Assembly (NCBI RefSeq): GCF_005239135.1
Contig: NZ_QKNX01000001.1
Location: forward strand, 372,001-436,000
DNA: 64,000 nt
From: Natronomonas salsuginis
Lineage (GTDB): Archaea; Halobacteriota; Halobacteria; Halobacteriales; Haloarculaceae
Direction: 5' to 3'
The first letter of the stretch is position 1. Each line of letters starts with the position of its first letter. The translations under genes and the position numbers were made by a program. The notes beneath the pieces were generated by a model that was given only the letters and a program-made list of their open reading frames with translations, searched no databases and was not told the origin of the DNA. Of this stretch, positions 32,693 through 62,843 are shown in pieces.

Positions 32693-34344
32693 CAGGCGGT
32701 CACCTCCTCGTGGTCCGTCTCTGCATCGTCGTGTCCGAGGATCGTCTCGACGAGGCTGACGAACGGCGGCGAGGCCCGCCCCGGCCGCGAGCGGAACTCG
32801 GGGTGGAACTGCGTCCCGAAGAAGAACTCGTTGTCGGGCAACTCGAGGATCTCCATTCGGTTTCCGGCACGCCCGGAGAAGACCAACCCCGCGGCTTCGA
32901 GCTCTTCGATGTACTCCGGATTGACCTCGTAGCGGTGGCGGTGGCGCTCAGTACAGGAGGTTTCGCCGTACACTTCGTGGGCCAACGTCGCGGTGTCGAT
33001 GTCGGTCTCGTGGGCGCCGAGCCGCATCGTCCCGCCCATGTCTTCGACCTCGTACTGCTCGGGCAGAATGTCGATCACGGGGTGGGCGGTCGTCTCGTCC
33101 ATCTCCGCGGAGTGTGCGCCCTCGTACCCGCAGACGTTTCGGGCGAACTCGATAACGGCCATCTGGAAGCCGAGACAGAGTCCAAGGAACGGTACGTCGT
33201 TTTCTCTCGCGTATCGAACGGCCTCGATCTTCCCGCTCGTGCCGCGAGCCCCGAACCCGCCGGGGACGATGATGCCGTCGGCGCGTTCGAGCCGATCCGC
33301 GTGGGCGTCGTCCATCTCGTCGGCGTCGACCCACAGGACGTTGACGTTCGTGTTCGTCTCGAAGCCGGCGTGCTTCAGCGATTCGTGGATCGAGAGGTAG
33401 GCGTCTTCGAGCGCGTACTTGCCGACGAGGGCAACGTCGATCTCGTCGGTCGCCTCCTGCGTGACGATCTCGCGCCACTCGTTCTCCCGGTCGGCCTTCG
33501 GGATCGCCTCGTCGTCGAGGCCGAGTCTCGACATGACGTACTCGTCGAGCCCCTCGTCTTCGACCATCAGCGGGACGTGGTAGATGTCCTCGACGTCGGG
33601 GTTCGAGAAGACGGCGTCGACCGGCACGTCGCAAAAGAGGGCGATCTTCTCCTTCGTCTCCGGGTCGAGTCTGTCGTCACAGCGCCCGACGAGAATGTCG
33701 GGCTGCAGGCCGATCGAGCGGAGTTCCTTGACGGAGTGTTGGGTCGGTTTCGTCTTCTGTTCGCCGTTCTTCGAGTACGGGACGAGCGTGACGTGGGTGA
33801 ACAGAATGTCCTCGTCGTCCTCCTCGTGGGCGAACTGTCGCAGGGCTTCGAGATACGGCATCCCCTCGATGTCGCCGACGGTGCCGCCGACTTCGATGAT
33901 ACAGACGTCGTGACCCTCCGCAGCCTCCCGGATCCGCCGCTTGATGTCGTCCGTAATGTGCGGGATGATCTGGACGGTCTTGCCGAGGTAGTCGCCAGCC
34001 CGTTCCTTTTCGATCACGTGGCGGTAGGTCTTGCCCGTCGTGACGTTGTGGTCGAACGTCATATCGATGTCGAGGAACCGCTCGTAGTTCCCGAGGTCGA
34101 GATCGACCTCCCCGCCGTCTTTCAGGACGTACACCTCGCCGTGTTGATAGGGGTTCATCGTTCCCGCGTCCACGTTGAGGTACGGATCGATCTTCACGGC
34201 CGTCACGTCGAAGCCGGCGTTGGCGAGCAGACGCCCGGTACTCGCTGCGGTGATGCCCTTGCCCAGTCCGGACATCACACCGCCGGTGACGAAAATGAAT
34301 TTTCTCCCAAGAGTGGGATCGTAGTCAGTAAGCTCCGTCGGCAT
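32692..34344 (-). CDS. pyrG: CTP synthase
   Basis: The start at 34344 gives 550 residues (M-P-T-E-L-T-D-Y, then [16 protein letters not shown]). The N-terminal amidoligase has the nucleotide loop G-L-G-K-G and K-I-D-P-Y-L-N-V-D. The C-terminal class I glutaminase has V-P-G-G-F-G-A-R-G and the nucleophile cysteine in F-L-G-L-C-L-G-F-Q. It makes CTP from UTP and glutamine. It is the first gene of pyrG-guaAb-DUF7126; the longer upstream open frame lacks conservation signs. Confidence 0.95.
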
Positions 34345-34404
34345 ACCGACGGTGCGCGAGCGTCGGACAAAACAATTTCGAACGATGTTTTTACACGCTC
34401 TGGT

Positions 34405-34487
34405 GGTCGCGCGCAGCTTGGCGCGCGACCGCCTTCGCGGCAAAAACGTCGATCAAAAATAGCGCGTACTCCTCCGGCAGCCGGAGG
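34405..34487. repeat. GC-rich inverted repeats between pyrG and the DUF429 gene
   Basis: A hairpin with 10-bp arms (GGTCGCGCGC, loop AGCTTG, 34405-34430) is followed by a second with 7-bp arms (CCTCCGG-CAG-CCGGAGG, 34471-34487). More imperfect repeats continue to about 34570. They lie upstream of pyrG and downstream of the oppositely read DUF429 stop. They may be a terminator for the DUF429 transcript or a small dispersed repeat. The 250-base gap has no gene. Confidence 0.4.
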
Positions 34488-38437: not shown

Positions 38438-38512
38438 GGGCCAATAGCTCAGCTAGGTATGAGCGCTCGGCTGATAACCGGGAGGTCCTCGGTTCAAATC
38501 CGAGTTGGCCCA
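38438..38512 (+). tRNA. tRNA-Ile (GAT)
   Basis: A 75-nt cloverleaf. The acceptor stem pairs GGGCCAA with TTGGCCC, followed by discriminator A. The anticodon stem CTCGG/CCGGG encloses the loop CTGATAA with anticodon GAT. The T loop is TTCAAAT. CCA is not encoded. The accessory region of the window starts immediately 3' of it, and tRNA 3' ends are common integration sites. However, no second copy of this tRNA's 3' end was found in the window. Confidence 0.95.
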
Positions 38513-39767: not shown

Positions 39768-41226
39768 GACATCCTCCCCGGCCTAAAGGGCGAGGATTCC
39801 CGAGCGTTGGGATATTAAGATTCGCAACCCACCTGTTCGCTCGGTGCGAAACGCCCCGAGGTTTGATTGAACAGGTAGGCTACTGGCCGTGCCAAACGAC
39901 CGTTACTCGTATCCCCCGTAGGAGGATTCTGAGTTATCTTTCTGCGAATGTTCACCGCACCATTCACGTCTGCGTTTATCGTCACACCGCACGACTCACA
40001 GACGTACAGACCACGCTCCACGCGATTCGCATCCTGCTTCCGACCACAGCACGAACACGCCTTCGACGTATCTCGTTCGCTCGTTCGGTCAACGAGGATG
40101 CCGTGTTCCTCGGCTTTGTATTCGAGCAACGTGGTGAAGCGGTCAAACTCCCAGCCGTGGAGTTTCTTGTTCCCACGCTTGCCCCAGTTCCGAGCGTCAC
40201 CATTTTCGTCTTCTCGAATCTTGCTCAAGTCGCCAACAGCGATGCGACCGACCTCGTGGTCGATACACTGCTCAACGGTGTGCTTGGCGAGGGCGTGTAG
40301 GAAGTGGTCTTTCCGACGCGAGAGGGTTTGCCGGGCGCGAAGCGCACGGCGTGACGGGCCGTTATTGCCCTCGGTGTCGTACTCGTCGCGGGTGAAGTAA
40401 TGCTTGTCCTGCTTCAGCACATTCCCCGGGTACAACTCTGCATCACCGTCATCGTAGGCGATAGCGAGGTAGTTGCTGATACCGAGGTCGATTCCAGCGG
40501 TGTTGTCGCCGGGTGCGTCCTCGACGGGAATCTCGACTTTGCAGACGAGGTGAAATTCCCAGTAATCGCCGTTCCACACGGCCCGAACTTGCTGGATGTT
40601 CTCCACGGTCACGTCCGGTCGAGTCTCGTACTCTGCGAGGATGAAGTCCGAGCGGTGGTTCTTGAGATTGAACCCTTTGCTCAGACGGAGTTGGTTGTGC
40701 TTCGAATCGTGCTTAATGCCGTTCTGCTTCCACGTCACGGTGGAGCGTGGGTGATTGTCGCCTTGCTTGCGGTAGCCGGGTGGGTTCGCGTCTGTGTCGC
40801 CGTTCTTGCGCTTTTCGAACCAGCCGTTGAGCGACTCAGCAAGCTCTTCGAGAACTCGCTGACTTGACTGAGAATGGAGGTCACTGTATCGTTCGTGGTC
40901 TTTTAGCTCGCGCTTGAGGTCGGCTTCGGACGGAATCTCGCCAGTGTCATCCCACTCTTGTTGGATGTGGGAGCGTGCGACGTTCCACAGTTTCGAGGCT
41001 GAGTGCCCGCAGTCATCGAGGTCGTCACTCACCTGTTGGTGGTTGACGATTTTCGCTCGATAGGTGCGGGTTGTCTCCAGCATCAGACTGTGTTCATAAG
41101 CACTTATAAAAAATAGGGTATTAAAAGTAACGACTGGGACGTGGAATATCCGATTATACCATCGAACGTGGTTAGTGGAGGAACTGTCGGCTGTATCCCC
41201 GCCCTGAAGGACGGGGTTTTAGCCTT
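39768..41226 (-). mobile_element. IS1341-type (IS200/IS605 group) transposon with tnpB only
   Basis: The element holds a single tnpB and no Y1 transposase. The 5' end relative to tnpB (right end here) begins AAGGCTAAAACCCCG beside GTTAC on the minus strand, and the other end has the hairpin-rich stretch before GATGTC. No target duplication is seen, as usual for this group. Boundaries were chosen because removing 39768-41226 restores the integrase frame; a shift by one base at either side is equivalent. Confidence 0.75.
39815..41083 (-). CDS. tnpB: TnpB-family RNA-guided nuclease (transposon-encoded)
   Basis: A 422-residue TnpB. The RuvC-I Asp is D199 in T-A-G-I-D-L-G. The zinc ribbon has C343-x2-C346 and C362-x2-C365. 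The RuvC-III Asp is D372 in N-A-D-V-N-G-A. The RuvC-II position reads I-A-V-G-D-L, with Gly284 where the catalytic Glu is normally found; E291 a few residues on could be a substitute. TnpB proteins cut DNA guided by an omega RNA made from the element's 3' end. The C-terminal tail of about 40 residues is not conserved. The gene is intact in length. Confidence 0.88.
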   Translation of the reverse strand: MLETTRTYRAKIVNHQQVSDDLDDCGHSASKLWNVARSHIQQEWDDTGEIPSEADLKRELKDHERYSDLHSQSSQRVLEELAESLNGWFEKRKNGDTDANPPGYRKQGDNHPRSTVTWKQNGIKHDSKHNQLRLSKGFNLKNHRSDFILAEYETRPDVTVENIQQVRAVWNGDYWEFHLVCKVEIPVEDAPGDNTAGIDLGISNYLAIAYDDGDAELYPGNVLKQDKHYFTRDEYDTEGNNGPSRRALRARQTLSRRKDHFLHALAKHTVEQCIDHEVGRIAVGDLSKIREDENGDARNWGKRGNKKLHGWEFDRFTTLLEYKAEEHGILVDRTSERDTSKACSCCGRKQDANRVERGLYVCESCGVTINADVNGAVNIRRKITQNPPTGDTSNGRLARPVAYLFNQTSGRFAPSEQVGCES

Positions 41227-41873
41227 GTAACTTCGAAAAATTCGATTATAGTTAGACTCGACGATTCGGCGAGCGTCACGAAATGCTGGCTCTCACCTGA
41301 CGAACTCGACCGGTTCGAACGGACCGCCGGGCACGACGGTTGGAATCGAGAGATCGCTATGCAGTTGATGGGACGCTGTGGCCTTCGAGCGTCCGAGGTG
41401 AGCTACCCGGCCGACAAGCACCTTCGCTGGTCCGAGGACGGCGACATATGGCTATTCGAGGTTCGTGGAAAGAACACGAAAGGCGGCGACCCGAAGATAC
41501 GCGATGTGTGGATGCCGGAGGACGTAGCCGACGACGTGCATAAGTACAGCCGTGAGCGCGGCCTCGTCGCAACCGATAGGTGGGTCGACGCTTCGACGCC
41601 GTCCATACGTCGGTGGGTCAAAGAAACGGCTGAGACGGTCGCACAGGAGACAGGAGATGAACGGTGGTTGAACGTATCGAGTCACAACCTCCGGCGCTCG
41701 TGGGCGACGTACCACCTCGTAGAGCGGCAGGTAGATGTTCGAACCATGATGAGCATCGGCGGTTGGTCCGACTACGAAGCGATTGAACCGTACCTCGCAG
41801 AGCCGACCGAGAAGCGGATCGGCGAAGCGATGGCGGCGAAACACCTACATTGATGAATTCACTACGAATTCAT

Positions 41874-42464: not shown

Positions 42465-42827
42465 CTACCCCTGCCTACTCGCCGCCTTCGGCGGCTCCTT
42501 GAGGCAGGGGCTTCCTGGTTCAACGACTCGCTTTGCAGGAACAACCGCAGTTCCCGTAGGGAGCGCAGTCTTCGCAGGCATTCCTTCGGAGTGACCCACT
42601 CCTAGTTGCGAGAGTCCGCGAGAAAGGATATTCCACGCCGCGTTTGCATCTCTGTCGGCTTCGAACCCACAGGCAGGACAGGAGTGTTCACGCACCCACA
42701 GCGGTTTGTCCGTTTCGACGCCACAGGACGCACACTCTTTGGTCGTTCCAGCCGGCTCGACTTCCACGAAGTGCGTGCCTTCGCGTTTGCACTTGTATTC
42801 GAGTAGATCGGTAAACGCTCCTTACTT
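42465..42827 (-). mobile_element. Truncated TnpB transposon (3' part only)
   Basis: On the minus strand an open frame encodes the C-terminal part of a TnpB: E-Y-K-C-K-R-E-G-T-H-F-V-E-V, then the zinc ribbon C-A-S-C-G ... C-P-A-C-G-F and the RuvC-III block R-D-A-N-A-A-W-N-I. Everything upstream is missing. The 3' end has the usual hairpin (GCCGCCGAAGGCGGC) and ends AGGCAGGGGTAGTTCA. It is a different TnpB lineage from the one at 39815. Confidence 0.65.
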
Positions 42828-56827: not shown

Positions 56828-57490
56828 ATGGATCGAATCCTAACTGAGACAGAGCGAGAATTCCTCCGAGGTGAAAAAGAGTACGCGGGTAATAAAACTG
56901 AGAGCAATAAGAGGCGGAATATCAGAGAACGAGTGTTTCAATCGTTAACTGACTTCGAGCTCCTAGCTAACGAATTACCTGAAGATGATCGACGGAAAAT
57001 TTTTGAACGACTCTCCAAAGAATCAGAATCACACGGGGCAGATGAGGCTGCTTCGGTAATTGAGTTCTTGTACAAGGGGTTCAGCGATCTAACAACAGAT
57101 CCGAACCATATTGCAGCTGGCCCTAAAGAGACCTCAGTGGAGCGATTCCTTGCCTTCCGGAACGCATTAACCACCGGTGTTGCAAGAGGAAAGTCTGAAT
57201 TCGAAAATCCACAGGAAGAACCGCCAGATATCGTCACTGTGGCTTCGAATGCCTATCTATTCGAATTTCCTGATGATGAGGACATCCGGGCAGAGCTAGA
57301 GACCGATCAATGGAGAGAGATTAACAAGCAATCACCCGGTGATATCGGAGATCATGACGATGTTGCCTTCTTCTTGCAGGCAATGATTCAACGTCAAATC
57401 CACGAGCGTATCTCTGCGCGCCATGAGACGGCTAATAAAAATCTAAAGGACTACAAAGATTTTGAAGGTGATGTAGCTGACATGAGTTAA
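56828..57490 (+). CDS. Haloarchaeal hypothetical protein, helical N-terminal domain
   Basis: A 220-residue protein with AT-rich codons compared with the core genome. The N-terminal 60 residues (L-T-E-T-E-R-E-F-L-R-G-E-K-E-Y then R-R-N-I-R-E-R-V-F-Q-S-L) form a helical domain that recurs in haloarchaeal viral and plasmid proteins. The rest has no known motif. Function unknown. It lies between the nuclease unit and the MCM gene. Confidence 0.6.
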   Translation: MDRILTETEREFLRGEKEYAGNKTESNKRRNIRERVFQSLTDFELLANELPEDDRRKIFERLSKESESHGADEAASVIEFLYKGFSDLTTDPNHIAAGPKETSVERFLAFRNALTTGVARGKSEFENPQEEPPDIVTVASNAYLFEFPDDEDIRAELETDQWREINKQSPGDIGDHDDVAFFLQAMIQRQIHERISARHETANKNLKDYKDFEGDVADMS

Positions 57491-57658: not shown

Positions 57659-59722
57659 TCACGTTGTTCTGTAGTGGTCTGTTTGGGGAGTGAACACTTC
57701 GCCCTGGTGAGCTAACTTCTCCAAGGCCTTGTTTGCTTTTTCAACAGGGACATCTAGTTCTGCAGCGATCTCCTCGACAGTCGGGCCATTGCCAGCACTC
57801 CCATCATTGAGTTCTTTGACAACCTGCTTGACAGATTTCATCCGTTCCTTCTGACTCATCGAAGTCCCGGTTTCTATGACATCGGCATCAAATTCTCCAG
57901 TTTCCGGATCGATTCCGACATCTTCCAGTGACTGCCGGATTAATTTCACAGCCCGCTCGACGTCTTCAACCTCGATCGTCTCAGATAGTCGGGCACGTGC
58001 TGACGATCCAGCCAGGCGGAAAATTCCTTCTTGCTTCCGCGCTGTTACCGGCACAGCATTCGGATTTCCGTCGTCATCACCCTGTTGGCGGAGATTTGTA
58101 TAAGCTGCGACCCCTTTCTTCCACACACGCTCGTCTTCGACTGTCGGGACAAGCTCTCGTGCACGCGAGATGTATCCACGAATAATTCGTGACGAGATGT
58201 TCCGTTCAGCCCTATCACGGTCAGTCTCTCCGGTCGCTTCTATCTCTAATGACCCGAGGAAACTCTTCGCAATGGCCTCGCCGACCGCAGCATCGTGTTC
58301 AGCGTCAACCTCATCTTGAAGCAAGAAGATGAGATCGAACCGTGACAACAGCGTCCCTTTGAAGTCAATCTGATCAGGAATCGGTTCGTATTTATCGAAC
58401 CGTCCATACTTGGGATTACCAGCTGCTAGAATGGCCGTATAGGCGGGTAGTGATACGCTCTGATCTGCTAACGACGCATCTACTCTCTGTCGTTCCATCG
58501 GGTTATGGAGCGCCTTAATTGCGTCATCACTAATTTTATCGATCTCGTCGATAGCACAGAGCCCGTCGTTCGCACGAACCAGCACCCCCGCCTTGATCGA
58601 CCACTGAGACCCCCCAAAGCCATCATCAGTCGCCGACACTGTCATGCCGGGAGCTGTGACCCGTTCGCCGACTATTTCTGACCGTGGGGCCAACTGATGG
58701 GCCTCATCAACGGTTTCTGACTTCGCCGTTCCGGGATCACCGAGGAGCAACATATGCCAATCACCGCGAATCCGTGTCCCGTCCTCGTGATCTGCTCGCG
58801 GTGAGCCAACCAACTGTAGCACGAGCGCTTCTTTAATCAGTTCGAGCTTGTCCGTTGTCTGGATTCCCGGTAACAATGACGCTTTCAGGTCTCCAATCGG
58901 CGTGTCTGACTCAGTAAGCACGGCAAGTTCCTCGTCACTCACGTCCTTGTCACCGGTTCCATCACGCAGCTCGATGTCCTCTGCATCCAAGAGATACGGG
59001 TATTCCGTTGACTCGGGGTTGGACCCATCAAGCGTGAGGACGCCAGTAACTGCTACACGCGACCCGACATCGCCTGTATACTCACCAGCTAACCTACCCT
59101 TCACTATCGCTGTAATCTGACTTTCGCCATCAGTAGCATCCTCAGGAGGGGTCTTGATCTGGACCAATTGTCGGTCGCGGAATTCCGAGCTCTCATAATC
59201 TACCTTGAATGGCCCTTGACGTTCACAACCCCGGCATTCGTGGGGTTCCGTCAGCCGGTCATTCTGCTTCGGTTGAGAAATCTGCGTTGTAGTACCGCAC
59301 CGTTGGCAGACAAACGAACCTTTGAGCAACACTGGCTTGACAGCGGTTATTTGTGCGAGTTGGCCGACGACCGTCATTGCCGTCCCCGTGTCTTCCGGTC
59401 GATAACAACCAACCTCTCGCTGGTTCGGGACGTTCCTGAACCGTATCGTAACCCCGCTGGAGATCTCATCCCCGTCGATCGGGTCGGTTGCGTCTAACAT
59501 CTGCAGCGCGTCAACGAAGTGGTCACGCATCCAATTCGGAAACTGCACGATATCATCTGCGAGATCCTGATTGAAGCGTGCGACTTGGCCGCAGTCGATA
59601 ACCAGTGACCGGTAGCCGTCTGCCCACTGTTCGATGAGGGCGTCAATCTCAACCTGATGCGTCTCCTCAAGAAAGTCTGCAATCTGTGCAGATACAGTCC
59701 GATCTATCGGATTATCGGGCAT
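57659..59722 (-). CDS. mcm: Accessory MCM replicative helicase
   Basis: From 59722 the protein has 687 residues. It has the N-terminal MCM domain with a zinc ribbon (C-Q-R-C ... C-R-G-C) near 151-184, and the AAA+ core with Walker A L-G-D-P-G-T-A-K-S, Walker B L-C-A-I-D-E-I-D-K and the arginine finger L-S-R-F-D-L. A C-terminal winged helix (V-E-E-I-A-A-E-L-D-V) ends the chain. No intein is present, although haloarchaeal chromosomal MCMs often have them. The setting in an accessory region with a DNA-binding partner gene indicates a plasmid or provirus replication protein. It overlaps the upstream gene by 11 bases. Confidence 0.88.
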   Translation of the reverse strand: MPDNPIDRTVSAQIADFLEETHQVEIDALIEQWADGYRSLVIDCGQVARFNQDLADDIVQFPNWMRDHFVDALQMLDATDPIDGDEISSGVTIRFRNVPNQREVGCYRPEDTGTAMTVVGQLAQITAVKPVLLKGSFVCQRCGTTTQISQPKQNDRLTEPHECRGCERQGPFKVDYESSEFRDRQLVQIKTPPEDATDGESQITAIVKGRLAGEYTGDVGSRVAVTGVLTLDGSNPESTEYPYLLDAEDIELRDGTGDKDVSDEELAVLTESDTPIGDLKASLLPGIQTTDKLELIKEALVLQLVGSPRADHEDGTRIRGDWHMLLLGDPGTAKSETVDEAHQLAPRSEIVGERVTAPGMTVSATDDGFGGSQWSIKAGVLVRANDGLCAIDEIDKISDDAIKALHNPMERQRVDASLADQSVSLPAYTAILAAGNPKYGRFDKYEPIPDQIDFKGTLLSRFDLIFLLQDEVDAEHDAAVGEAIAKSFLGSLEIEATGETDRDRAERNISSRIIRGYISRARELVPTVEDERVWKKGVAAYTNLRQQGDDDGNPNAVPVTARKQEGIFRLAGSSARARLSETIEVEDVERAVKLIRQSLEDVGIDPETGEFDADVIETGTSMSQKERMKSVKQVVKELNDGSAGNGPTVEEIAAELDVPVEKANKALEKLAHQGEVFTPQTDHYRTT

Positions 59723-60326
59723 CAGAATCACCACCGTTGCGCTTCTGCGCGCTCTTCAACTCGTGTTTTTGACTACTGGCTCCGACATCTGTCGATTGCT
59801 GCGAGCCACCAACGCCACGCCTCAGACGCTCCGGGGCGACACTAATATCATCATGGGCAGACGCTCGCGCCCGGATATCTGCGATAATGTCGTCACGCTT
59901 TGTCTCCGATGGCCCGGAATCATGCTTCACGCGAATTGCGTCCTCAATGCGACTCTTGTAGGCCTCGATCGTCTTGTTCGGATTCTGGTCCATGTCGGTC
60001 AATATGATGTCGAATATCTCAGTGAGGTCCCTGCGCTCTTCCTCAATCCGCTGCAACCGCTCCGTAATTTCACGGTGCTCCTGCCGGACGTCTTGTAACT
60101 CTCCGACGAGTGTCTGAATCTGATCACGGAGCCGTGACTCTCTATCAGCCAGGGTTTCGCTGCGGCGACGAAGATACGCCTCGCTGTCTTCGTCAACTCC
60201 GAGCGTCTTCTCGATGATCTCAATGACTAACTCACTCTGCGCGAGACCTCGTTGCTCTGCGACTTCCTCAATCCGCTCGCACACGTCTTCGGTCAGTCGC
60301 AAGTTCTTTCGGCCAGGATCAGTCAT
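59712..60326 (-). CDS. Coiled-coil DNA-binding protein (RHH-like N-terminus), partner of MCM
   Basis: With the start at 60326 (M-T-D-P-G-R-K-N-L-R-L) the protein has 204 residues. Residues 8-40 fit a ribbon-helix-helix domain (L-R-L-T-E-D-V-C-E-R-I-E-E-V-A ... S-E-L-V-I-E-I-I). Residues 45-110 form a long coiled coil rich in Glu, Arg and Gln. The tail is polar. It is the first gene of an operon with MCM (11-base overlap). The palindromes TGGCAC-N3-GTGCCA 61-94 bases upstream are its probable binding sites. Confidence 0.7.
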   Translation of the reverse strand: MTDPGRKNLRLTEDVCERIEEVAEQRGLAQSELVIEIIEKTLGVDEDSEAYLRRRSETLADRESRLRDQIQTLVGELQDVRQEHREITERLQRIEEERRDLTEIFDIILTDMDQNPNKTIEAYKSRIEDAIRVKHDSGPSETKRDDIIADIRARASAHDDISVAPERLRRGVGGSQQSTDVGASSQKHELKSAQKRNGGDSDAR

Positions 60327-60386
60327 GCTCCCCTCCGAGCAGTCGTTATCGAGTAGTGCTGTTTCCTCTCCAGTTCGGCAATGTGC

Positions 60387-60420
60387 TGGCACGTGGTGCC
60401 AGTTCTGGCACCTGGTGCCA
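60387..60420. promoter_or_regulatory. Two tandem palindromes TGGCAC-N3-GTGCCA (copy 1)
   Basis: TGGCAC-GTG-GTGCCA (60387-60401) and TGGCAC-CTG-GTGCCA (60406-60420) lie with centres 19 bp apart. They sit between divergent genes (RHH-like at 60326 leftward and a small frame at 60449 rightward). They are probably operators for a dimeric DNA-binding protein and may double as origin iterons for the adjacent MCM operon. Confidence 0.7.
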
Positions 60421-60448
60421 CGCGCGTGGGGGACTGGTTCGAGAACGG

Positions 60449-60610
60449 ATGATACGACCTCACGTCCTGACGCAACTGGAGCGGGTCGCCCCGTTTGGCG
60501 CTCGCCGCCTCGACCGAGTCTATCGGTTGGAATGCTCGTTGCATTTCAACCCGACCAACGTGACCGACCTCGGTCGGGATTATTACGTAGTTAGCGATGA
60601 GGTTCTTTAA
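60449..60610 (+). CDS. Small protein, copy 1 of a duplicated frame
   Basis: A 53-residue frame (M-I-R-P-H-V-L-T-Q-L-E-R-V-A-P-F-G) with Y-Y-V-V-S-D-E-V-L at the end. The same frame is conserved in copy 2 (L-E-R-V-A ... D-L-S-R-G-Y-Y-A-V-C-D-E-V-L) despite many substitutions, which argues that it is translated. It is short and has no known family. The stretch 60611-60902 after it has no further gene. Confidence 0.5.
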   Translation: MIRPHVLTQLERVAPFGARRLDRVYRLECSLHFNPTNVTDLGRDYYVVSDEVL

Positions 60611-60902
60611 GACAGCCCGCTACCACCCCGCCAGTCGCCACATATTTCATCGAAATCCGATGAACCGGGCGAGATGGCATGGTTCAGCTGCCGACCCTAA
60701 CCGCGGGCGATACTGAACGGTATCCAACTCGTCTCTGTCGCGCCTCAAATTAACACGCACTTCGGCAGTACAGCGGAACTGGTTCTAGGAATGGGGTGAT
60801 GAATCTCTTTCCTCACGAATTCCGGCGTCTCAGCCCGTCACACACGCCTAGTTGGGCTTGTTAACAGAGAATTCCGCCAGTCTACCCAAGAGCGAAAGAG
60901 CG

Positions 60903-61217
60903 TTACTCTACACTCTCATCATCGTCGCTGTTTGGTACAGCCACCACCTCAACCTTAACGACGCCAACCGCTTTACGGTTACAGCGACCGCAACGCGGCA
61001 TTTCACGCTTCGGGATACCACCAGTGATTGGGATGATATCGTGCCCCTCCCGGCAGGCGACGATCGTCGTCGCACGGTCGAGGTCCCGAGCCAGCGCCAA
61101 TGCCGACTCTGGCGAGTAGCCAGCGCGGAAGGACCCATGAGTCAGGGTTACCACTTCGAAGACGACCTGGCCGGCGTGCGGATCCTGGTCGCTGTCCGCA
61201 GGTTCGTAGTCAGTCAT
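60903..61217 (-). CDS. Hypothetical protein with zinc-knuckle-like C-terminus
   Basis: A 104-residue protein. Residues 15-50 form a mixed fold (V-F-E-V-V-T-L-T-H-G-S-F). C55-R-E-G-H and C76-G-R-C79 could bind a metal. Function unknown. The start overlaps the stop of the 44-residue frame upstream (61214-61217), so the two are a small operon leading leftward from copy 2 of the duplicated module. Confidence 0.6.
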   Translation of the reverse strand: MTDYEPADSDQDPHAGQVVFEVVTLTHGSFRAGYSPESALALARDLDRATTIVACREGHDIIPITGGIPKREMPRCGRCNRKAVGVVKVEVVAVPNSDDDESVE

Positions 61218-61348
61218 ATCTCGGACCCGTGATCTGCGAGCAACTCAACCTCGGCACGATTGTCTCGGTACCTTCGTACGTGAGTTGAGACTTCGCCCCG
61301 CTTGTCGAAACCCAATTCTTCTTTGACCTCTCGGCCAGGATCAGGCAT
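61214..61348 (-). CDS. 44-residue protein at the duplicated module
   Basis: A frame from the ATG at 61348 (M-P-D-P-G-R-E-V-K-E-E-L-G-F). The first five residues and the codons before them resemble the start of the RHH-like gene at 60326 because both starts lie inside the duplicated module; after that the proteins differ. The peptide is short, basic and acidic in turn and may be DNA-binding (R-G-E-V-S-T-H-V-R-R-Y). Expressed with the 104-residue gene. Confidence 0.5.
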   Translation of the reverse strand: MPDPGREVKEELGFDKRGEVSTHVRRYRDNRAEVELLADHGSEI

Positions 61349-61406
61349 GCGTCCCCCGGACCGTCGGCATCTAGTAGTGATGTACTCCCTCGACCCGGCA
61401 ACCTGT

Positions 61407-61440
61407 TGGCACATGGTGCCAGAACTGGCACCTAGTGCCA
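61407..61440. promoter_or_regulatory. Two tandem palindromes TGGCAC-N3-GTGCCA (copy 2)
   Basis: TGGCAC-ATG-GTGCCA (61407-61421) and TGGCAC-CTA-GTGCCA (61426-61440), again with centres 19 bp apart. The palindromic arms are identical in all four sites of the window while the spacers vary, which points to selection for protein binding. Confidence 0.7.
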
Positions 61441-61486
61441 CGCGCGTAGGGGACTGATTCAATGGCGGACGACACGACAGCGCGTC

Positions 61487-61621
61487 GTGACGAAACTGGA
61501 GCGGGTCGCCCTGTGTGGGGTTCACCGCCCTGATCGGTTGGAATTTTCGTTGCATTGCAATTCGACCAACGAGGCCGATCTCAGTCGGGGTTATTACGCA
61601 GTTTGTGATGAGGTTCTTTAG
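61487..61621 (+). CDS. Small protein, copy 2 of a duplicated frame
   Basis: A 44-residue frame from GTG at 61487 (V-T-K-L-E-R-V-A-L-C-G). It aligns with the 53-residue frame at 60449, sharing L-E-R-V-A, S-L-H-x-N-x-T-N, Y-Y-x-V and D-E-V-L at the end. No ATG is available, so expression is less sure than for copy 1. Confidence 0.4.
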   Translation: MTKLERVALCGVHRPDRLEFSLHCNSTNEADLSRGYYAVCDEVL

Positions 61622-61755
61622 GACAGCCCGCTACGAGCGCGTCAGCCGCCACCTATTTCATCGAAAACCGATGAACCCGGGGGGACGGCACGGATCGACC
61701 GCCGGCCCTGTCCGTGGGAGGTGCTGAACGGCGTATAACGCGTTGCTGTACCGGT

Positions 61756-62724
61756 CTATAATCGAGAAGCAGCATCGAAGCTGGTGAGTTCCTCAATCCG
61801 GGTTTCCAGTTCCTCGATTTCCTGTTGGAGCTGTTCGGTATCCTCGTCGGTCGCCGCGAGTTTGTCTTTCAACCCCTGCAGCCGCGTTTCCTTCTGTTCA
61901 TCGTTGACCTCGGCCTTCCGGACATATTCGCTTTCTTCAATCTCGTATACGTCTGATTCGGCGAGTTCCGTCACGTTTAGCGCGTCATCGACCTTGCTCG
62001 CGTCCACGCTGGTCACGTCTTCTCTGTCAATCCCGACGGCCTCCAGTCGCTCCAGCACTTCCTTTTCGTCCTTAAGCGAGCGGTTCCGCCGCGACGTACG
62101 CTGGACTGACCCGTACTGCCCGCTGACGGGCTGGTCGTGGTGGAGCCGGTCGAGCAGGACGCTCCGGGCGTCTTGCCGCAGGTCGTTAGCGTTCCGTTGT
62201 ACATCCGAGAGCAACGTGTAGAGGTTCACGAGTGCGGGCGTGTCCATCCCGTCGAGATCCGATGGGTCGTTCCGTTCGAGCGCGTCAATCAAGAGCAGTG
62301 CATCAGCGTAGATGGGGATGTCTGGTTCTTCCCGGTCGCCGTTTCCTGTCTCGCTGGCTACCTCGTGGGCGTCAACCAAGGGGGAGCTTGACGGCGTCTC
62401 AGTTTTCTGGAGTATCCCCTCGTGGTCGTCAAGCTCGAACCGTGGATGAAGACTCACCACGGTTGCGTACGGTTCGGAGTCGGGTGGGAGGCGGTCAAGA
62501 TCGAACCCACCGGTGGCGTCTTCGACCCGCTGAAATAGCGTTTCGAACTGCTCGCGTTGCAGAGGGATCACCCCGTCATCGTCTCGGTACGTGATGAGAA
62601 TCCGATGTTCCTGCACGTCCGTAATCCGGAACGGCGTGCGAGACAGCGGCGTGAGCAGCGTTGCATCAGCTGGCAGTTCCTCGGCAGTATCCAGCAGATT
62701 GTGCCACGTTGCGCTGAGCGGCAT
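61756..62724 (-). CDS. Haloarchaeal hypothetical protein with C-terminal coiled coil
   Basis: With the start at 62724 (M-P-L-S-A-T-W-H-N-L-L-D-T) the protein has 322 residues. The N-terminal 85 residues form an alpha/beta domain (L-L-T-P-L-S-R-T-P-F-R-I-T-D-V-Q-E-H-R-I-L-I). Residues 125-190 are helical. Residues 275-318 form a coiled coil (E-D-T-E-Q-L-Q-Q-E-I-E-E-L-E-T-R). No known function; such proteins occur in haloarchaeal accessory regions. It ends 25 bases after module copy 2. Confidence 0.65.
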   Translation of the reverse strand: MPLSATWHNLLDTAEELPADATLLTPLSRTPFRITDVQEHRILITYRDDDGVIPLQREQFETLFQRVEDATGGFDLDRLPPDSEPYATVVSLHPRFELDDHEGILQKTETPSSSPLVDAHEVASETGNGDREEPDIPIYADALLLIDALERNDPSDLDGMDTPALVNLYTLLSDVQRNANDLRQDARSVLLDRLHHDQPVSGQYGSVQRTSRRNRSLKDEKEVLERLEAVGIDREDVTSVDASKVDDALNVTELAESDVYEIEESEYVRKAEVNDEQKETRLQGLKDKLAATDEDTEQLQQEIEELETRIEELTSFDAASRL

Positions 62725-62843
62725 ATCTGTTAGTTCGCCGCACAGAGCAAAAGTCCACGGGCGACAGAGAACAGCGAGATTCAAGATGACATGAGGACAG
62801 GGTCAAATGTTCATAGGCGGTGCCCGAGAACGCCGGCTATTGT

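Follow-up and report, generated by a model that had tools for sequence, protein, structure and literature searches.

Many archaeal viruses and plasmids have an MCM helicase of their own, and how it reaches an origin when no cognate Orc1/Cdc6 is present is an unsettled question. The question is raised here by a 64-kb stretch of DNA, referred to below as the window, in which an mcm gene overlaps the gene of a predicted RHH–coiled-coil protein and pairs of the palindrome TGGCAC-N3-GTGCCA lie upstream of both. With a probability of roughly one half, we take these pairs to be bound by the RHH–coiled-coil protein, which would autoregulate the rhh-mcm operon and mark an origin that recruits the element's MCM. 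If true, this would be an initiation system that is compact and free of Orc, and perhaps also an orthogonal origin of use in haloarchaeal genetics. In any case the locus offers a candidate partner protein with its exact sites on the DNA, and four motif–protein pairs, independent of one another, that are open to swaps. A literature search, with the queries made, found no description of an rhh-mcm operon.

Palindrome pairs beside the rhh-mcm operon

The features of the window that bear on the question are the following.

56828..57490, plus strand: 220-aa open reading frame convergent with mcm; no Pfam match, homologous frame in the same place in Halapricum (L017:6616-7281)
57659..59734, minus strand: mcm gene for a 691-aa MCM helicase of element type (Pfam MCM 1.5e-55, MCM_OB and MCM_lid; NCBIfam MCM domain model 7.8e-119)
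59712..60326, minus strand: gene of the 204-aa RHH–coiled-coil protein (P0001), overlapping the start of mcm
about 60309..60680, no strand: conserved non-coding module, copy 1 (alignment, conservation profile, AT profile)
60387..60401, no strand: palindrome 1 of pair W1, TGGCACGTGGTGCCA (motif search)
60406..60420, no strand: palindrome 2 of pair W1, TGGCACCTGGTGCCA, 19 bp from palindrome 1 (motif search)
60903..61217, minus strand: 104-aa open reading frame located between the module copies; no match to any family, perhaps a gene under pair W2
61330..61697, no strand: second copy of the conserved non-coding module, with 80.6% identity to copy 1 (alignment)
61407..61421, no strand: palindrome 3 of pair W2, TGGCACATGGTGCCA (motif search)
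61426..61440, no strand: palindrome 4 of pair W2, TGGCACCTAGTGCCA (motif search)

A motif search of the whole window finds four palindromes, forming the two pairs W1 and W2, while dinucleotide shuffles of the window contain none. Within a pair the centres are separated by 19 bp, and from one pair to the other the distance is 1,020 bp; furthermore, the half-site pitch is 9-10-9 bp both here and in the related pairs of Halapricum described below. The arms are identical in all four sites, and the N3 spacers and flanks vary. An earlier note on this DNA had described just such a duplicated module with four palindromes, identical in their arms and variable elsewhere, and its sites and distances are reproduced on recomputation.

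Each module is about 370 bp long, with conservation dropping sharply at both ends. Copy 1 forms the region upstream of the leftward rhh-mcm operon and holds, in addition to W1, a G-string GTGGGGGACTGG, the repeat GGTTGGAA..TCGTTGCATT..CAACC, the inverted repeat TTCATCGAAAtcCGATGAA and a locally AT-rich stretch near 60575-60625 in the AT profile; it is a candidate promoter/operator as well as a candidate origin. The start of a leftward gene, which the note had placed in each copy, belongs to the intact RHH gene in copy 1, whereas copy 2 agrees with that gene over no more than the ATG and some 7 codons (M-x-DPGR) and then diverges. The small rightward frame which the note had seen in both copies is most likely non-coding, the substitutions between the W1 and W2 copies being spread as 8/16/10 over codon positions 1/2/3 without a codon-position signal. 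The divergence between the two copies equals that of either from the Halapricum copy, which dates the duplication to roughly the time at which the window and Halapricum elements split. DNA-level relatives of the module were not found in plasmid records.

The note had proposed a genome-wide search for the palindrome, and this shows that the sites are not scattered: the genome (2,904,418 bp) has six exact sites, which are three pairs, the third (W3, G000:C1:437323-437356) lying 1.3 kb beyond the right end of the window. All three pairs, the only ones in 2.9 Mb, are thus within 6 kb of the rhh-mcm operon. Allowing one mismatch adds 3 sites genome-wide against 9 for a reversed control pattern, which is the level of chance. 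With six sites in the genome and one-mismatch sites at chance, a host-wide regulator was rejected.

Across 195 related genomes the paired motif occurs in two, namely the source genome and Halapricum hydrolyticum HArc-curdl7 (G066), in both cases beside an rhh-mcm operon. In the latter, the pairs H1 and H2 lie 454 bp apart next to an RHH gene whose product is 87% identical to that of the window and an MCM that is 83% identical. The same two genomes are the only ones among 392 searched to encode the RHH protein at high identity, although these genomes are a part of the order and the family members found a lower bound, others having probably been missed. In viral contigs no palindrome pair was found. 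H1 aligns with the W1/W2 module, and H2 (L017:10520-10691) and W3 (L007:12210-12383) have about 100 bp in common. It should also be mentioned that this similar flanking sequence of at least about 100 bp adjoins no conserved gene that could be recognised.

The five pairs W1-W3, H1 and H2 agree in every one of their 24 arm bases, while the flanks differ by about 20% (W1, W2 and H1) or more; the chance of such invariance is about 0.005 to 0.001 per comparison. The six-base GC-rich stems and 3-nt loops could be thought to form RNA hairpins acting as terminator or attenuator, yet there is no T-run, the same sequence recurs in all copies, and none of the 60 stem pairs of the 10 palindromes has a compensatory change, which favours recognition of DNA over a hairpin in RNA. 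We reject the hairpin and terminator explanation for these reasons, its probability being very small. The notion of strong selection for binding by one dimeric DNA-binding protein, put forward in the earlier note, is in turn well supported by the invariant arms in ten palindromes of two genera, the absence of the site elsewhere in the genome and the lack of compensatory changes.

The RHH–coiled-coil protein and its counterparts at other mcm loci

In the AlphaFold2 (AF2) model (pLDDT 71.5), the 204-aa protein has RHH-type helices at residues 13-26 and 30-42 following an extended segment, then a long coiled coil (49-114) and two C-terminal helices. The top Foldseek matches, Arc, VapB, MatP, CopG and AvtR among them, are nearly all RHH proteins, the best with E 0.21 and probability 0.96 and none with E<=0.001. 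Pfam RHH_5 scores E=0.0044, below the gathering cut-off, and the assignment is hence made by structure and not by a sequence threshold; a sequence search against solved structures gave weak CopG and coiled-coil matches at best. An RHH fold of the MetJ/Arc/CopG type is nonetheless supported by the model and the Foldseek matches.

The combination of an RHH–coiled-coil protein with an N3-spaced palindrome is reminiscent of MatP, one of the top Foldseek matches, and its site matS, a palindrome with the same spacer, GTGAC-N3-GTCAC. MatP of E. coli is an RHH dimer with a C-terminal coiled coil (PMC12756933). It differs however in having an additional N-terminal four-helix bundle, single dispersed sites, a chromosome-organising role and no replication gene as partner, whereas in the AF2 model of the window protein the RHH begins at the N terminus and the bundle is missing.

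An RHH–coiled-coil gene immediately preceding an element-type mcm is found, by RHH profile and MCM anchor, on plasmids of Natronosalvus halobius (NZ_CP099999.1, 25% identity) and N. amylolyticus (NZ_CP101158.1, 23%), whose MCMs are 38-41% identical to that of the window, and by profile in two further genomes, G062 and G389. With the window and Halapricum these make six plasmid or integrated loci. The arrangement occurs in the viral contigs L082, L097 and L100-L105 as well; peptide patterns detected no RHH relatives in viral contigs, and these pairs came to light via the MCM search.

Each distant homologue has its own palindromic repeats upstream: TTCTAGAA in Natronosalvus, and TTGTACAA and TCCCTATA/TATAGGGA in G062 and G389. 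In N. halobius all 8 copies of TTCTAGAA are at 34189-34444 of the 47.5-kb plasmid, and closely spaced pairs of it occur nowhere else in either Natronosalvus genome, while TTGTACAA has 9 copies within 0.7 kb. The motif sequences are unrelated to that of the window, but a pitch of 19 bp recurs, the centre distances being 19/17 with 7 and 12 in Natronosalvus, 19 and 7+12 in G062, and 19-10-20 in G389. When as many sites are placed at random, this has p = 0.007 (Natronosalvus), 0.002 (G062) and 0.17 (G389), and as the 19-bp criterion was taken from the window, the tests on these three families are fair, though few. Palindromic iterons with 19-bp spacing thus lie upstream in six of six plasmid or integrated rhh-mcm loci. 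The viral contigs with the gene pair have no iterons directly upstream, which limits the association to these six; there the gene pair seems to be embedded in longer transcription units.

Both the motif and the presumed beta-strand of the RHH are preserved within groups (the window and Halapricum; the two Natronosalvus plasmids) and both differ between them. Taken together with the exclusive linkage and the predicted RHH fold, this makes it very probable that the RHH protein binds the palindromes, and its nomination as binder in the earlier note is to that extent upheld, on indirect grounds of sequence and modelled structure.

In a generic 7-mer test the arrays of N. halobius, N. amylolyticus and G062 are strongly above chance and those of G389 and Halapricum marginally so, and the repeats of the window do not exceed chance, since their arms are gapped palindromes and noticeable only as such. 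Twenty element-type mcm loci that have another gene upstream served as a control, and by the same test no repeat family in any of them exceeds a first-order Markov null. That other gene encodes a coiled coil and, behind it, a domain modelled by AF2 as a winged helix, for which Foldseek returns winged-helix matches, none with E<=0.001. The gene of such a protein, of 160-200 aa with a coiled coil and a winged-helix-like C-terminal part, precedes most of the remaining mcm genes of haloarchaeal plasmids and viruses, as in BJ1 (ORF33), Humcor1, Haloarcula and Natrinema (loci L066, L069, L071, L073, L074, L077, L079 and L083-L099). It is a candidate for a second family of MCM partners, one without iterons upstream.

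On a tree of 40 MCMs the partner type is strongly clustered, with 4 changes against a shuffled mean of 16 and a minimum possible of 3, this being a quick tree with two long branches (G062 and L104). Such co-inheritance is in keeping with a functional pair, but is equally to be expected from physical linkage by itself.

An RHH protein together with an array of short sites is typically seen in partition systems, and the pairs might accordingly be a centromere bound by a ParR/ParG-like protein. This is however made very unlikely by the facts that no ParA-type gene was recognised adjoining the RHH gene, that the partner is mcm in every case, and that ParA of the Natronosalvus plasmid is encoded at 75-905, far from the iterons near 34.2 kb.

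Operator, origin and the recruitment of MCM

The geometry suggests how the protein could be arranged. Two RHH dimers would sit side by side on each pair, in keeping with the half-site pitch of 9-10-9 bp and the palindrome pitch of 19 bp, and occupancy of W1, which precedes the start codon of the RHH gene by 61-94 bp, would autoregulate the operon. The position of this pair makes the operator function named in the earlier note likely, and we infer that the protein probably represses or tunes rhh-mcm there. Just downstream of a TATA box is the usual place for an archaeal repressor to bind, and in Natronosalvus one group of sites follows a TATATAA box in this way. ORF56 of the Sulfolobus plasmid pRN1, although a protein of 56 aa without a coiled coil, provides a parallel. 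In the orf56/orf904 operon the gene of a small DNA-binding repressor stands directly before that of the replication enzyme, and the repressor takes part in copy-number control (PMC4234260). The window has the same order, with overlapping genes in one operon, but its enzyme is an MCM and no ORF904 homologue, and the likely origin of pRN1 is a stem-loop downstream of the operon. The rhh-mcm operon is thus one that works like the pRN1 operon without being a member.

Of the alternatives considered, the main ones are that the protein is an autorepressor only and that the palindromes are Orc sites of the ORB type. According to the former, RHH would be a copy-number repressor just as ORF56 and have no part in an origin, with replication starting elsewhere. 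The position of W1, the gene order and downstream origin of pRN1 and the Natronosalvus sites behind the TATA box are all in agreement with this, but the distal arrays of Natronosalvus (6-7 sites, 230-340 bp upstream) and the distal pairs W2, H2 and, at a distance of 5 kb, W3 exceed the needs of a simple operator, and the non-coding module of some 370 bp is conserved well past it. A function restricted to autorepression consequently appears doubtful, although it is the most serious of the alternatives.

In the reading that we prefer, the same bound complex, together with the distal pairs W2 and W3, which the coiled coil could bridge, would mark the replication origin of the element. That the palindromes are part of such an origin is possible, at odds slightly below even. 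The suggestion of origin iterons in the earlier note is plausible, as the downstream gene encodes an MCM helicase and no orc1/cdc6 gene is nearby, but it draws no support from the GC-skew check that the note had proposed: the skew marks no origin at the island, and the skew minimum of the N. halobius plasmid is far from its iterons.

Haloarchaeal origins served by orc1/cdc6 have repeated dyad sites, a G-string beside the dyad and an AT-richer stretch nearby (PMC3528665), and comparable features are seen in the window. A G-string (GGGG) follows four of the five pairs on the same side, H2 being without one, and this is the best point in favour of the idea that the palindromes are ORB-like boxes of an ordinary origin for a host or trans-acting Orc1/Cdc6. 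In the source genome, matches to TIGR02928 over the cut-off are found on contigs C3 and C5, so several host orc genes on other contigs could act at the element in trans, and a Cdc6-like gene is present some 2 kb away from the iterons on each of the Natronosalvus plasmids, where Orc could therefore be the initiator. The dyad is however unlike anything else in the genome, the surroundings of its orc genes included, its motif and pitch are other than those of ORB origins, and rhh-mcm takes the place of an adjacent orc/cdc6. Furthermore, the arrays go with mcm loci of the RHH type and are missing from the others, and by the same TIGR02928 cut-off there is no orc1/cdc6 on the element contig C1 nor on the corresponding contigs of Halapricum (C13), G062 (C24) and G389 (C56). 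An Orc-free reading consequently fits four of the six loci, and we consider Orc boxes rather improbable.

It has also been described that PrpA, an RHH-type regulator, binds the origin iterons of its plasmid and lowers copy number (PMC7848731), and the window protein might by analogy block an initiator. PrpA is however a bacterial antitoxin which inhibits a separate Rep initiator and has no MCM beside it, and at the present locus no separate initiator or toxin gene was identified and the linkage is with mcm, all of which renders negative control of this type improbable, to a slightly greater degree than Orc boxes.

If the RHH-bound pairs do mark an origin, the MCM of the element would be recruited there in place of Orc1/Cdc6 action. 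That RHH recruits MCM directly is the least certain step of the proposal, and we hold it to be tentative and on the unlikely side. The Thermococcales 'Yamaviridae' are reported to have a small RHH-like helical protein at the replication locus with a suggested role in replication control (PMC12934983); there it replaces MCM, whereas the RHH protein of the window accompanies it, and the passage on the protein mentions no iterons. More speculative still is the generalization that RHH–coiled-coil proteins are Orc-independent initiators and MCM loaders on lineage-specific iterons of 19-bp pitch, and that the coiled-coil/winged-helix family does likewise for most of the other MCMs of haloarchaeal viruses and plasmids.

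The surrounding element

The palindromes and the rhh-mcm operon likely reside on an integrated mobile element with its left border at a tRNA-Ile gene (38438-38512). This gene is followed by a tyrosine recombinase fragment at 41359-41853 (C-terminal part, Phage_integrase 1e-10), and the AT content rises rightward. No exact att repeat of the tRNA-Ile 3' end of at least 14 bp occurs within 93 kb. A TnpB-type protein (OrfB_IS605 / Cas12f1-like TNB) is encoded at 39815-41083, and a separate short open reading frame at 42465-42767 resembles, by eye, a C-terminal TnpB fragment. Beyond the second module, at 61756-62784, lies the gene of a 342-aa coiled-coil protein which matches the viral family phrog_35116 (1.6e-130) and thereby points to exchange with a haloarchaeal virus. 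Right of the window, from L007:14170 to L008:20000, there is a defence-like island with genes for a CARF-PIN-like protein, an LmuB/Old-like ATPase, a DNA methyltransferase and a McrC-type McrBC component, next to which an 1128-aa protein has weak matches to type II restriction enzymes.
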